From Paenibacillus sp. RUD330 (GTDB taxonomy: Bacteria > Bacillota > Bacilli > Paenibacillales > Paenibacillaceae), in the NCBI RefSeq assembly GCF_002243345.2, contig NZ_CP022655.2, positions 4,156,501 through 4,220,500 on the forward strand: a DNA stretch of 64,000 nucleotides. Direction: 5' to 3'. Below the pieces are notes generated by a model, which was not told the origin of the DNA, did not search any database, and worked only from the letters and a program-made list of their open reading frames with translations. Positions 31,792 to 53,982 of this stretch are shown piece after piece (position 1 is the first letter of the stretch; the number at the start of each line of letters is the position of its first letter). The position numbers and the translations under genes are program-made.

Positions 31792-31976
31792 CAAAAAGAC
31801 CCCTTCTCGCGCTTGAGAAAGGGTCGCAGGGTTCTATGGACGGAAACGCATGCGCCTCTCTCATCTCCCAGACACGCCGCTGCCGCACGCGCATCCGCAA
31901 GAATTAGCACCGTGCGTTCGCACGCCGGTTGCCGGGCTTCATCGGGCTGGTCCCTCCGCCTACTCTTGATAAGAAA
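31792..31976 (-). ncRNA. SAM-I (S-box) riboswitch with terminator
   Basis: On the minus strand the conserved S-box order is visible: CTTATCAAGAG, GGCGGAGGGA, GATGAAGCCCGGCAACC, CGGTGCTAATTC and GATGAGAG. The expression platform follows: GACCCTTTCTC pairing with GAGAAGGGGTC (31798-31825), then TTTTT. S-adenosylmethionine binding should cause premature termination and shut off metA-metI-metC. Confidence 0.96.
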
Positions 31977-33761: not shown

Positions 33762-36700
33762 GTGTTCAAATCCATCTGCATCACCCTGCTCGCAGCCGCT
33801 CTGTCGCTGCCTGCCCAATTGCCGGCCGCCGCCGCGGCCGCGGATGAAGCTCCCCAAGCCTCGAGCGAAGCCTACAGCTGGGGTCGGGCCGCCGTCGTCG
33901 GCGGAGGGTTCATTCCCGGCATCGTCTACAGCAAGGCCGAACAGGGACTTGCCTACGTCCGGACGGACATGGGCGGCGCCTATCGCCGTGACGCCTCCAC
34001 GGGCGGCGTCTGGAAGCAGCTGCTGGAGGGAATCGGCATGGAGGAATGGAATCTGCTCGGCGTGGAGAGCATCGCTCCCGATCCGTCCGATCCGAACCGG
34101 GTCTATGCCGCGCTAGGCACCTATACCAATGACTGGACCGACATGAACGGCTACATCTACCGCTCCTCCGACCGGGGGGACAGCTGGCAGCGGACGGAGC
34201 TTCCCTTCAAGCTCGGAGGCAATATGCCCGGACGCTCCATGGGCGAGCGGCTGGCCGTCGATCCCAACGACGGAGACATCCTCTATCTCGGCGCGCGCAG
34301 CGGCAACGGCCTCTGGAGAAGCGCCGATGCCGGGGCCACCTGGAGCCGGGTCGCTGCCTTCCCCGCCGTCGGCTCGGCTGCAGACGACTATATGAAGGAT
34401 CCCATCGGAGTCGTCTGGGTCGCCTTCGACCCTTCATCCGGAACGAAGGGAAGCCCGACGCCGGTCATCTATGCGGGAACGGCGGACCGGGATGCCTCCA
34501 TCTACCGCAGCCGGGATTCCGGCGCGACATGGGAAGCCGTGCCGGGCCAGCCCGGCCAGGGCTTCCTGCCGCATCACGGCGTCCTCTCGTCCGACGGCCG
34601 GCTCTACGTGACCTACGCCAAGGATATCGGACCTTATAACGGCGGCGAAGGCTCGGTCTGGGTTCTCGATACGGCTTCCGGACAATGGAGCGACATCAGT
34701 CCGGAAGGCGCAGGCAGCACCTCCAGCCCGTACGGCGGCCTCGCCGTCGACGCCCGCCATCCCGGCACCGTCATGGTCGCAACGATGAACAAATGGTGGC
34801 CGGACGAGCAGATCTACCGCAGCCTAGACGGAGGCCGGACATGGAAGCCGTTCTGGACGTTCGGCAATTACCCGGAGCGGAACAACGGCTACGAGCTGGA
34901 CGCCTCCCTTTCCCCTTGGCTGGACTGGGGGGTGAAGGACAAGCCCCTGCCCGAAACTTCGCCCAAGCTGGGCTGGATGATCGGCAGCCTGGAGATCGAT
35001 CCGTTCGACTCCGGCTCGATTCTGTACGGAACGGGAGCGACGCTGTACGGCGCTTCCGACGTGACCGCGCTCGACCAGCCGCTCACAGCGGGAGGCAGCG
35101 TCTACGGACCTGTGCATCTGTCCGTCCAGGCGGGGGGCATCGAGGAGACCTCCGTGCTCGGGCTCATCAGCCCGCCGGCAGGAGCTCCTCTGCTCAGCGC
35201 GATGGGCGATATCGGAGGCTTCCGCCACGCCGATCTGTCCAGAGCTCCTGAGATGATCACGAATCCTTATATCGGAACAAGCACGGATCTGGACTATGCC
35301 GAGCTTGACCCCGACTTCATCGTGCGGGTCGGCAATGTCTCCGGCAGTGATGCCGGCATCGGGGTGTCCCGGGACAACGGCATCACCTGGAAACCCGGCA
35401 CGAATCCATGGGGAAGCGGCTCGTCCGTCGGCGGCGGTTATGTGGCGGCTTCCGCCGACGGCCGCTCCATCCTCTGGAGTCCGGAAGGCCAGCCCGCAAG
35501 CCGGTCCGCGGACGACGGACAGACATGGCAGCCGTCCGCAGGCATTCCAGCCGGCGCTGCCGTCAGCTCCGACCGCGTCAATCCGGACAAATTCTACGGC
35601 TTCAGCGACGGCATCTTCTACACGAGCGCCGATGGCGGAGCGACCTTCCATCAAGAGGCGGCGACGGGGCTTCCGAAGCGGATCACCAGCAAATTCAAAG
35701 CCGTTCCGGGTGTCGAAGGCGACATCTGGCTTGCCGCGGCATCGGACAATAAAAATCCCGAGGATGCGTTCGGCCTGTACCGCTCCACGGATTCCGGAGC
35801 CAGCTTCCGGCAGGTTCAAGGCGTCGAGGAGTCGGCTTCGGTCGGCTTCGGCAAAGCCGCTGCCGGACAGCCATACATGGCTGTGTACAGTTATGCGAAG
35901 GTCGATGGGAAGTGGGGCATCTACCGCTCCGACGACGCAGGCGGCCGCTGGACGCGCATCAATGACGACGCCCATCAGTTCGGCGCCGCCAACCGGACGA
36001 TAACGGGAGATCCACGTGTATACGGCCGCGTTTACGTCGGAACCAACGGCCTCGGCGTCGTGGTCGGGGAACGGCAGGCCCAGGAGCCGAATCCGGGCTC
36101 GGAGCCTTCGCCGAGCTCCGGGCCGACTCCGAGCGCAGCCCCTTCCCCGAGCTCCGGGCCGACTCCGAGCACGGCCCCTTCCCCGAGCTCCGGGCCGACT
36201 CCGAGCGCGGAGACGAATCCGGGCACGGAGCCCTCTGCGACGCCGGCTCCAGGACCGGCTTGGACACCAACGCCGACGCCGAGCGCTTCGCCTGCCCCAT
36301 CGGCGGCTCCAACGCCGGCAGCGTCTCCCGCGCCATCCGCATCTCCGCCGGACGGATCGGCCGGCAGCGCCCGCCCGTTCACCGATCTTGCGGATGCGCC
36401 TTGGGCCGCCGCCGACATCGGCAGGCTCGCCGCGCTGGATATCGTCCGCGGCTCCCTCGCCGGCGCCTTCGAGCCGAACCGCGCCGTCACCCGCGCGGAA
36501 TTCACCGTCCTTCTGCAGCGGGCGCTGAAGCTTCCCGAAGCAGCCGCGGCGGGTCCGGGCCCGTTCAAGGACGTCCCTCCGGGCGCCTGGTACAGCCAAG
36601 CCGTTGCGGCCGCGGCGGAAGCAGGCCTGATCTCGGGCACAGGCAGCGGAGCCTTCGAGCCGTCCAGGCCGCTGACGCGCCAGGAGCTCGCCGTCATGGC

Positions 36701-36935
36701 GATGCGGGCTCTGCAGCTGCTCGGCAAGCTCCAGCCGCCCGACGCTGCGGATATCCCTTCGCTTCTTGGCGCCTACAAGGACGGCGGCAGGACGGCCCCG
36801 TATGCCCAGGCCTCCCTCGCAGGCCTCCTTCAGGCCGGCATGCTGTCCGGGATGCCGGATGGCAGCCTCGCCCCGGCGCAGCCTGCCACTCGCGCCCAAG
36901 CGGCCGTTCTGCTGCTGCGGCTTCTCGGCCGCTGA
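33762..36935 (+). CDS. Secreted GH74 xyloglucanase with SLH cell-surface anchor
   Basis: The 1057-residue protein has a signal peptide (residues 1-27, cleavage near AAAAA-DEA), a GH74 domain of two seven-bladed propellers with many sialidase-like Asp-box repeats (SSDRGDSWQ, SADAGATWS, SLDGGRTWK, STDSGASF), a Pro/Ser/Thr linker (about 770-868) and three S-layer homology domains (about 869-925, 935-987, 1000-1056). The two catalytic aspartates of GH74 are D69 (YVRTDMGGAYR) and D483 (SAMGDIGGFRH). It should cut xyloglucan or related beta-1,4-glucans outside the cell while attached to cell-wall polymer through the SLH domains. It starts with GTG after GGAGG. No sugar transporter is adjacent. Confidence 0.94.
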   Translation: MFKSICITLLAAALSLPAQLPAAAAAADEAPQASSEAYSWGRAAVVGGGFIPGIVYSKAEQGLAYVRTDMGGAYRRDASTGGVWKQLLEGIGMEEWNLLGVESIAPDPSDPNRVYAALGTYTNDWTDMNGYIYRSSDRGDSWQRTELPFKLGGNMPGRSMGERLAVDPNDGDILYLGARSGNGLWRSADAGATWSRVAAFPAVGSAADDYMKDPIGVVWVAFDPSSGTKGSPTPVIYAGTADRDASIYRSRDSGATWEAVPGQPGQGFLPHHGVLSSDGRLYVTYAKDIGPYNGGEGSVWVLDTASGQWSDISPEGAGSTSSPYGGLAVDARHPGTVMVATMNKWWPDEQIYRSLDGGRTWKPFWTFGNYPERNNGYELDASLSPWLDWGVKDKPLPETSPKLGWMIGSLEIDPFDSGSILYGTGATLYGASDVTALDQPLTAGGSVYGPVHLSVQAGGIEETSVLGLISPPAGAPLLSAMGDIGGFRHADLSRAPEMITNPYIGTSTDLDYAELDPDFIVRVGNVSGSDAGIGVSRDNGITWKPGTNPWGSGSSVGGGYVAASADGRSILWSPEGQPASRSADDGQTWQPSAGIPAGAAVSSDRVNPDKFYGFSDGIFYTSADGGATFHQEAATGLPKRITSKFKAVPGVEGDIWLAAASDNKNPEDAFGLYRSTDSGASFRQVQGVEESASVGFGKAAAGQPYMAVYSYAKVDGKWGIYRSDDAGGRWTRINDDAHQFGAANRTITGDPRVYGRVYVGTNGLGVVVGERQAQEPNPGSEPSPSSGPTPSAAPSPSSGPTPSTAPSPSSGPTPSAETNPGTEPSATPAPGPAWTPTPTPSASPAPSAAPTPAASPAPSASPPDGSAGSARPFTDLADAPWAAADIGRLAALDIVRGSLAGAFEPNRAVTRAEFTVLLQRALKLPEAAAAGPGPFKDVPPGAWYSQAVAAAAEAGLISGTGSGAFEPSRPLTRQELAVMAMRALQLLGKLQPPDAADIPSLLGAYKDGGRTAPYAQASLAGLLQAGMLSGMPDGSLAPAQPATRAQAAVLLLRLLGR
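36111..36218 (+). repeat. 36-bp tandem repeat in the GH74 linker
   Basis: Three copies of a 36-bp unit beginning CCGAGCTCCGGGCCGACTCC encode the linker repeat SPSSGPTPS-x-AP. Copy number may vary between strains. Confidence 0.85.
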
Positions 36936-36969: not shown

Positions 36970-37007
36970 AACCGGAATTCCGCATCTTTGCGGGTTCCGG
37001 TTTTTTT
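36970..37007 (+). terminator. GH74 gene terminator
   Basis: AACCGGAA and TTCCGGTT, with inner CCGCA/TGCGG pairing, form a strong hairpin followed by TTTTTTT. Confidence 0.92.
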
Positions 37008-37224
37008 CCGCTGCTCGGATCCACATGTTCCGCTCGCTCCCGTTCTCGGACGGCCTTGGATATCGGCTTCCCGCGACTGCCCAAAAGGCGGCGGCCGCTT
37101 TATTTTCCGGTATTCCTGCGTATCGGCGCGCCCCCGGTAACCCCCTTCCCGCCTTCCGCATACACTGCACGAACTATCCGGCGGAGAGGGCGGCGGCAGG
37201 CGATATTTCCCCGTCTGAATTTCC

Positions 37225-37254
37225 TTGAGTCCATCCTGTCCTAAAGAGTATACT
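37225..37254 (+). promoter_or_regulatory. corA promoter
   Basis: TTGAGT (37225-37230) and TATACT (37249-37254) are 18 bases apart. Transcription from about 37261 would give a leader of about 225 bases before corA. The stretch 37008-37224 holds nothing recognisable. Confidence 0.75.
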
Positions 37255-37301
37255 AGACAAGACTTTCATACTGCCCCGAGGGGAACAAGGAGTGAAACGC
37301 C

Positions 37302-37397
37302 ATGGAAGGCGAAGGGCCTAAGCCAGCCTCTAGCAACGATCAGCAAACCCAACACCAAGAAGACGACAAGTCGGACCCCGCCTTGCGTGGACGTTGA
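37302..37397 (+). CDS. Candidate corA leader peptide, 31 aa
   Basis: A 31-codon ORF lies within the corA transcript leader. Its ATG is seven bases after an excellent AAGGAGTG site. The product begins MEGEGPKP and is hydrophilic and acidic, with many E, D, Q and P residues; no membrane segment or known domain is present. The acidic/proline start recalls the enterobacterial MgtL leader (MEPDPTP...), whose translation is unstable at low magnesium and so controls mgtA. A stretch CTCTTCTCC (37415-37423) just after the stop can pair through TTCTCC with GGAGAA of the corA ribosome site (37475-37480). The ORF and its ribosome site are seen; the magnesium-sensing role is inference. Confidence 0.55.
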   Translation: MEGEGPKPASSNDQQTQHQEDDKSDPALRGR

Positions 37398-37486
37398 TCT
37401 CCCTGCCCTGCAGGCTCTTCTCCGCCCGCCGCCAACGGCCGCGGCATCCGGCTCCTGCTCGTTCTTCCGCGAGAGGAGAATAAACC

Positions 37487-38422
37487 ATGAAAATCCGCAT
37501 GGTCAACAACGGGGTGTTCGCCCCCGTCGAAGATTTGCAAGCAACGCTTGTCCCGCCCCTCGAGGGCTTCTACTGGATCGATGCGGACGTCGAGGACCTT
37601 GCCGTCCTCCAGCCGCTGTTCGGCCTTCACGACCTGGCCGTCGAGGACTGTCTGAGCGAGGAGGAGCAGCGCCCGAAGATCGAGCTGTACGAAGGCCATT
37701 ATTTTATCGTCATCAACAGCATCAGGTTCGATGACGAGGAGATCTTCCTCCGGGCGCTCAACATGTTTCTCGGCCGGCATTACATCATCACCGTCACGAA
37801 GCAGAAGATCAACGAGCTGCGTGCCCTGAAGCCGATTCTCTGGGAGCAGGACGTCAACCGACCGGACCGCTTCCTGTACCATCTCGTCGACCTTGTCGTG
37901 GACAATTACTTCCTCGTCGGCGACCGGATCGAGGCGCGCATCGAGAGCCTTGAGGAAGACATCCTCATGCATACGAAAAAATCGCATCTCGGCGAGATCA
38001 TCGGCCTGCGCAGCGAGATTCTCTGGCTCAAGAAGGTGCTCGGCCCTCAGCGCGACGTCATCGCCACGCTGAACAAAAAGGATCTTCGCCTCATCGACGA
38101 CCAGCTGCAGAAGTACTTCAGCGACATCTACGAGAATGCGGTCAAGATCACCGAGACGTTCGACACGTACCGCGACCTCATGGCGAACTTGCGCGAGGCT
38201 TACCAGTCCAGCCTGTCCAGCCGCGCCAACGAGATCATGCGCGTGTTCACGGCGCTGACGACGATTTTCATGCCTCTGACGTTCATCACCGGCATCTACG
38301 GCATGAACTTCTCCCATCTGCCGGGAGAGCATTTCTATTACGGCTTCTACCTCATCATGGGCTTCATGCTCATGCTGGGCGGCGGCATGCTGTTCCTGTT
38401 CCGCAAGAAAGAGTGGCTGTAA
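37487..38422 (+). CDS. corA: CorA-family magnesium/cobalt transporter
   Basis: The 311-residue protein has the CorA build: an N-terminal cytoplasmic alpha/beta domain, a long helical stalk (about residues 130-245), and two C-terminal transmembrane helices linked by the selectivity motif GMN at 272-274 (GIYGMNFSHLPGEH), with the basic tail FRKKEWL. It forms pentameric Mg2+ channels gated by cytoplasmic Mg2+. GAGAGGAGAA precedes the ATG. A promoter, a 31-codon ORF and about 90 further leader bases lie upstream, so expression may be controlled after initiation. Confidence 0.95.
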   Translation: MKIRMVNNGVFAPVEDLQATLVPPLEGFYWIDADVEDLAVLQPLFGLHDLAVEDCLSEEEQRPKIELYEGHYFIVINSIRFDDEEIFLRALNMFLGRHYIITVTKQKINELRALKPILWEQDVNRPDRFLYHLVDLVVDNYFLVGDRIEARIESLEEDILMHTKKSHLGEIIGLRSEILWLKKVLGPQRDVIATLNKKDLRLIDDQLQKYFSDIYENAVKITETFDTYRDLMANLREAYQSSLSSRANEIMRVFTALTTIFMPLTFITGIYGMNFSHLPGEHFYYGFYLIMGFMLMLGGGMLFLFRKKEWL

Positions 38423-53763: not shown

Positions 53764-53970
53764 ACAAAAAAAGCACTGGAAACCCAAGTGCCTGTGCGCC
53801 CTGCGAGTCCGGTCAAGCAGCCTCCGAGGTTAGCTGTCGGATTCGGGCATGACGGCTGCCCTATCCGCTCCCGGCAGGCTGCCGCCTGCGCCGGAACGGA
53901 ATTCACCCCAAGCTGCGCCAGGCAGCTATATGGTTCCCCCGTATTCTTTTGGAAATTCGGCTGTTCTATA
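53764..53970 (-). ncRNA. ydaO-type c-di-AMP riboswitch with terminator, before ktrB
   Basis: On the minus strand conserved ydaO elements appear in order: GGGGGAACC, GGGGTGAATTC, GGATAGGGCAGCC, GACAGCTAACCTCGGAGGC. A terminator follows (GCACTTGG...CCAGTGC then TTTTTTT, 53764-53793). High c-di-AMP should terminate transcription and lower potassium uptake, as in Bacillus ktrAB. Confidence 0.93.
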
Positions 53971-53982
53971 TGGTCGGATTTG

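Follow-up and report, generated by a model that had tools for sequence, protein, structure and literature searches.

A short open reading frame conserved upstream of corA across Paenibacillales as a probable Mg2+-sensing leader peptide

Is the short open reading frame in front of corA in Paenibacillus sp. RUD330 a leader peptide through which Mg2+ could set the synthesis of the CorA channel? The question arises from the window, the whole 64,000-nucleotide stretch of DNA analyzed here, where an initial annotation had described a promoter, a leader of about 225 nt, and a 31-codon upstream open reading frame (uORF) with its own ribosome site ahead of a gene called corA. Direct reading bore out every coordinate of this description, including the leader length. 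The leader contains the following features, together with the strands discussed below.

37225 to 37254, + strand: sigma-70-type promoter TTGAGT-N18-TATACT (TATACTAGACAAG block), with TTGAGT at 37225-37230, an 18-nt spacer, and TATACT at 37249-37254; direct reading
37287 to 37294, + strand: uORF ribosome-binding site AAGGAGTG; direct reading
37302 to 37397, + strand: leader ORF MEGEGPKPASSNDQQTQHQEDDKSDPALRGR, 31 codons plus stop, start ATG at 37302; direct reading
37305 to 37325, + strand: acidic/proline start, residues 2 to 8, EGEGPKP in the window, consensus [E/D]GD[P/R]...P; codon-periodic conservation on the CorA tree
37359 to 37376, + strand: region 2, uORF-tail strand GAAGACGACAAGTCGGAC, which can pair with region 3; duplex energy and order-wide statistics
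37415 to 37423, + strand: anti-ribosome-site strand CTCTTCTCC proposed by the initial annotation; predicted pairing with GAGAGGAG
37446 to 37468, + strand: region 3, ATCCGGCTCCTGCTCGTTCTTCC, partner of region 2 (open state) or of region 4 (locked state); predicted pairing
37470 to 37480, + strand: region 4, corA ribosome site CGAGAGGAGAA; direct reading and predicted pairing
37487 to 38422, + strand: corA, 311-amino-acid CorA Mg2+ channel, ATG at 37487; Pfam and solved structures

The identity of the downstream gene was confirmed: its product matches Pfam PF01544 (E 1.3e-68) and solved CorA structures (E about 5e-50), and the GMN motif can be read in the sequence. By comparison of CorA loci, the closest relatives of the window are Paenibacillus. 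Upstream of corA lies a large protein ORF (33762-36935), whose C terminus is SLH-like and which contains repeated Pro/Ser linkers, and between the two is an inverted repeat and T-run resembling a terminator (36970-37010). Because this repeat follows the large ORF, corA appears to be a single-gene transcript. The leader peptide has no match in Pfam, the corA leader matches no Rfam family, and the covariance model of the M-box (ykoK, RF00380) found no match in the window, in its own genome, or in the genus. Elsewhere in the window, a c-di-AMP (ydaO/yuaA) riboswitch (53805-53972, − strand) and a SAM (S box) riboswitch (31858-31975, − strand) score well above the Rfam gathering scores.

CorA orthologues were collected by protein similarity alone, blind to what their leaders contain. 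The sample consisted of 8 genomes of the window's genus, 80 loci of named Paenibacillus and Cohnella, a further 45 genomes of Paenibacillales, and 15 genomes of the nearest family outside the order; a uORF was counted when a ribosome site preceded a start of the form M[E/D]x[D/E/N]. The initial annotation had named absence of the ORF or its ribosome site from close relatives as evidence against the idea. None of the 8 genomes of the genus lacks either, and across Paenibacillales both occur in 132 of the 133 corA leaders sampled, with a purine-rich site ahead of the uORF in 132/133 leaders, while none of the 15 outgroup corA leaders carries the uORF. Most uORFs in the order are preceded by a TTGA.../TATACTAGACAAG promoter block. 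The sole exception, Paenibacillus alkaliterrae (L036), has kept the promoter and the uORF ribosome site but neither the uORF nor the 5′ pairing strand (region 2); the gap, ~60 nt upstream of corA, looks like a deletion and a natural loss of the switch. Among 124 distinct leaders the uORF ranges from 27 to 57 codons, and three leaders start with TTG, the peptide being kept nonetheless. CorA paralogues in the genus (15 loci of about 3.5 to 3.9 kb) have no uORF upstream. In genomes of the order without this CorA, matches to the pattern at other sites appeared to be chance and were discarded. In the family outside the order, three leaders without the MEGD uORF (L124, L125, and L128) contain another short ORF, MHDDSQ..., ~143 nt upstream of corA and preceded by AAGGAGGC or GAGGAGGC.

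The start of the uORF is conserved as amino acids, as the distribution of changes in its codons indicates. Residue 2 is acidic in 124/124 distinct leaders (E in 72, D in 52), residue 3 is Gly in 120, residue 4 is D or E in 122 and N in the other 2, and a Pro occurs within residues 2 to 8 in 120. The initial annotation had suggested examining synonymous sites in the leaders of relatives. Counted by parsimony per codon position on the CorA protein tree (124 tips), codons 2 to 4 underwent 7 changes at positions 1 and 2 versus 43 at position 3 (positions 1/2/3: codon 2, 0/0/12; codon 3, 2/4/16; codon 4, 1/0/15), and since changes concentrate at third positions, it is the amino acids that are held. 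Acidity at residue 2 is lost nowhere on the tree. Variation climbs past the start and is saturated from codon 9 or 10 on, near 35 to 40 changes per site; in the region 5′ of the ORF, the uORF ribosome site shows the fewest changes. Together with this codon-periodic conservation, the recurrence of promoter, ribosome site, and ORF in essentially all relatives argues that the uORF is real and not a chance ORF. The peptide had also been described as rich in E, D, and P. As a conserved property this applies to the first ~8 residues and not to the tail: the window's EDDKSDP is rich in these residues but shows no conservation as peptide across the order, and its codons lie within the stretch able to pair downstream. 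A uniformly acidic peptide was accordingly rejected, conservation ending near codon 8. A point against the leader-peptide reading is that the start has only two acidic residues and no run of them. The acidic/proline start is nevertheless a sequence feature of the kind that destabilizes ribosomes, and by analogy it may do so here.

We consider it likely that this leader peptide acts in cis, ribosome behavior on the uORF setting corA translation so that corA would be on when low Mg2+ aborts the uORF and locked when Mg2+ is sufficient. One promoter would drive the leader, and ribosomes would initiate on the uORF, whose M-[E/D]-G-[D/E]-[P/R]...P start would favor early ribosome breakup at low Mg2+ (intrinsic ribosome destabilization [IRD]). 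With sufficient Mg2+ the uORF would be completed and region 2 covered by ribosomes, leaving region 3 to pair with region 4, the corA ribosome site and start, and corA would be off. At low Mg2+, abortion in the first codons would leave region 2 free to capture region 3, exposing the corA ribosome site and turning corA on. We infer the abortion at the start, the ON/OFF direction in cells, and Mg2+ as the signal, the last from the identity of the downstream gene and from analogy with MgtL and MgtQ.

The decisive point is the prediction that the uORF tail and the corA start compete for one RNA strand in alternative structures. Tail:downstream duplexes are stronger than in dinucleotide shuffles (mean z, −2.25; p<=0.05 in 66/127 leaders). 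For 74 leaders mutually <75% alike, we computed the accessibility of the corA start in state A, with a ribosome that goes no further than codon nine (aborted), and in state C, with the uORF covered until just beyond its stop (translated). State A accessibility was 0.380 with the real tail versus 0.311 with shuffled tails (p 1.5e-8), and state C accessibility was 0.346 with the real downstream sequence versus 0.418 with shuffled downstream sequence (p 1.2e-7). The difference A minus C exceeded 0.05 in 32/74 leaders and ran in the opposite direction in 12/74, including part of one clade (L034 and L046). In the predicted structures, the tail pairs downstream in 61/74 leaders in state A, the downstream strand is paired with the corA start region in 69/74 in state C, and the same nucleotides are shared by helices 2:3 and 3:4 in 43 of 73 diverged leaders, versus 7 to 17 with shuffled tails and 6 to 14 with tails swapped between leaders. 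By these comparisons, the uORF tail is selected as RNA and not as peptide.

The pairing sequences vary by clade: Cohnella, for example, has GCAGGAC:GUCCUGC, two Paenibacillus clades have AUCAGCUUGCCGG:CCGGCCAAGCUGAU and CUGCCGGAU:AUCCGGCAG, and the window's genus, where helices differ only modestly between leaders, has AAGCCGGAU:AUCCGGCUU. Several tails, such as those of L151 and L148, are similar in sequence to the corA start region, which is what competition of two strands for one partner would predict. RNAalifold, run per clade, gave structures that are usable but dependent on the alignment, so the order-wide case rests on the shuffle and swap controls. In four Cohnella leaders (L099, L100, L107, and L109), GGGGGAAGCCGGAC-ATGG, the uORF ribosome site and start, can pair in a long helix with the last codons of the same uORF, GTCCGGCTTCC, which suggests that uORF initiation may itself be controlled there.

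In the window's own leader, the region 2:3 duplex has a computed energy of −18.7 kcal/mol and the local hairpin of region 3 with the corA ribosome site −13.9 kcal/mol. The same helices can be drawn in L003 to L007, and for L003 and L005 the two modeled helices share nucleotides. The window leader is GC-rich; although both helices can be drawn, its free folding does not separate the two states (corA-start accessibility, 0.32 versus 0.32), and the case for a switch in this exact species thus rests on its relatives. The initial annotation had pointed to TTCTCC (37418-37423), which can indeed pair with GGAGAA (37475-37480); the best drawing joins CTCTTCTC (37415-37422) to GAGAGGAG (37471-37478) with a duplex energy of −14.3 kcal/mol. 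This pairing is kept in only part of the genus, TTCTCCGCC being retained in five of the eight leaders (L001, L002, L005, L006, and L007, not L003, L004, or L008), and the more general anti-ribosome-site strand lies nearer to corA, at 37446-37468. The TTCTCC:GGAGAA pair may serve as a second lock.

Other readings of the same architecture can be weighed against these results. A pure RNA element or a chance ORF with an irrelevant peptide might draw on the tail, which is constrained at the RNA level, and on the high nucleotide conservation among close relatives around ATGGAAGGCGA, but the codon-periodic pattern of change, the interchange of Glu and Asp, the TTG starts, and the ribosome site at nearly every start leave it hardly any credibility. 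Transcription attenuation, in which uORF translation sets read-through of an intrinsic terminator formed by the tail:downstream helix or of a Rho site in the leader, would recall the enterobacterial mgtA and corA leaders, which act via Rho (PMC11552253), and in one Paenibacillus clade (L064 and L066) the 3′ arm is followed by 5 to 7 T. Terminator-like sites, however, occur in just 9 of the 74 diverged leaders versus predicted pairing of the corA start in 69; intrinsic-terminator attenuation was rejected as a general mechanism on this count, and attenuation in either form seems unlikely to us. Because intrinsic terminators are so rare, the output step is probably translational.

A translational output could also run with the opposite sign, uORF translation opening the corA ribosome site by coupling and early abortion lowering corA. 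A few leaders have 13 to 22 nt between the uORF stop and corA, and in L043, L048, L052, and L152, which are of this kind, a covered uORF raises the predicted accessibility; there, coupling could act instead. Over the order, however, the uORF-to-corA gap has a median of 86 nt, and a free tail increases accessibility across the diverged leaders (32 up versus 12 down), so we regard coupling as very unlikely. It is also conceivable, if improbable, that the same leader-peptide switch answers to another signal, such as translation stress (shortage of EF-P or ABC-F factors, ribosome heterogeneity, or antibiotics) or another CorA ion (Co2+ or Ni2+). Co2+ is also carried by CorA proteins, and the architecture shows only that ribosome progress is sensed. 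In E. coli, nascent chains with an acidic start are sensitive to the ABC-F factor EttA as well (PMC11282234). Against such a signal, every sampled case has a CorA Mg2+ channel downstream, CorA having been the basis of sampling; Mg2+ is what the nearest known systems sense (PMC8092293, PMC11552253); and no M-box was detected in the genus. We return to the putative Mg2+-responsive leader peptide. The likeness to MgtL put forward by the initial annotation holds for the acidic start, conserved as peptide, and for strand competition far above controls, Mg2+ itself entering by the analogy given above. On the whole, that interpretation was largely right and is supported.

Leaders built on this logic are known from Enterobacteria. 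In Salmonella and E. coli, inefficient elongation of MgtL at low Mg2+ switches mgtA on, and for both MgtL and CorL the Mg2+ gene is repressed when ribosomes translate the uORF efficiently (PMC11552253). Like MgtL, the Paenibacillales uORF is a short acidic and proline-containing ORF in the leader of an Mg2+ uptake gene (PMC11552253); it differs in the gene, the phylum, and its [E/D]GD start, and the output of MgtL is Rho termination, whereas here the predicted output looks like locking of the ribosome site. With CorL it shares a position in a corA leader and, by prediction, alternative structures and uORF translation inverse to corA; CorL is reported to have fewer acidic and Pro residues and to act via Rho (PMC11552253). 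We see no evidence of common descent with CorL and claim none. Closest in mechanism is MgtQ of the Salmonella mgtC-mgtB operon, an acidic small ORF that aborts translation, with stems 1:2, 2:3, and 3:4, where 3:4 hides the downstream ribosome site and stem 2:3 releases it (PMC8092293). MgtQ, however, has 8 codons and is intergenic within an operon and enterobacterial, while the Paenibacillales uORFs of 27 to 57 codons occupy a 5′ leader order-wide in Firmicutes. The M-box (RF00380) likewise provides Mg2+-linked leader control of Firmicute transporters but is an RNA that binds the metal directly. It was detected in 14/119 genomes of the order versus 41/121 in a broader sampling of the class, some genomes of this family among them. 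G151 and G169, two Paenibacillales genomes that gave no strong match to this CorA, each carry an M-box, a hint of other ways of sensing Mg2+. This distribution fits, and does not prove, a division of labor.

In keeping with the initial annotation, which knew of no such description for corA in this group, a literature search (mostly open-access and without preprints) returned enterobacterial and mycobacterial cases and none in Paenibacillus. Mg2+-linked, translation-aborting leader ORFs are known as a kind; what is new is the lineage, the peptide motif, and probably the output step. From the sequence comparisons, it seems probable that Paenibacillales possess an order-wide Mg2+-sensing leader peptide that arose independently outside Enterobacteria, in which ribosome destabilization by M[E/D]GD-P would control CorA translation in an order where M-boxes are scarce, the tail evolving as RNA in competition with the corA start. 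In the literature searched, ribosome destabilization as an Mg2+ sensor is confined to enterobacterial leaders. If our reading is true, the principle arose again in Firmicutes, where it guards the CorA channel across an order, and more than 100 natural variants are at hand to dissect which residues sense Mg2+. It would also explain how M-box-poor bacteria could control Mg2+ uptake, and the uORF would be a clear example of two selective pressures on a single small reading frame, one on the peptide at the start and one on the RNA in the tail.
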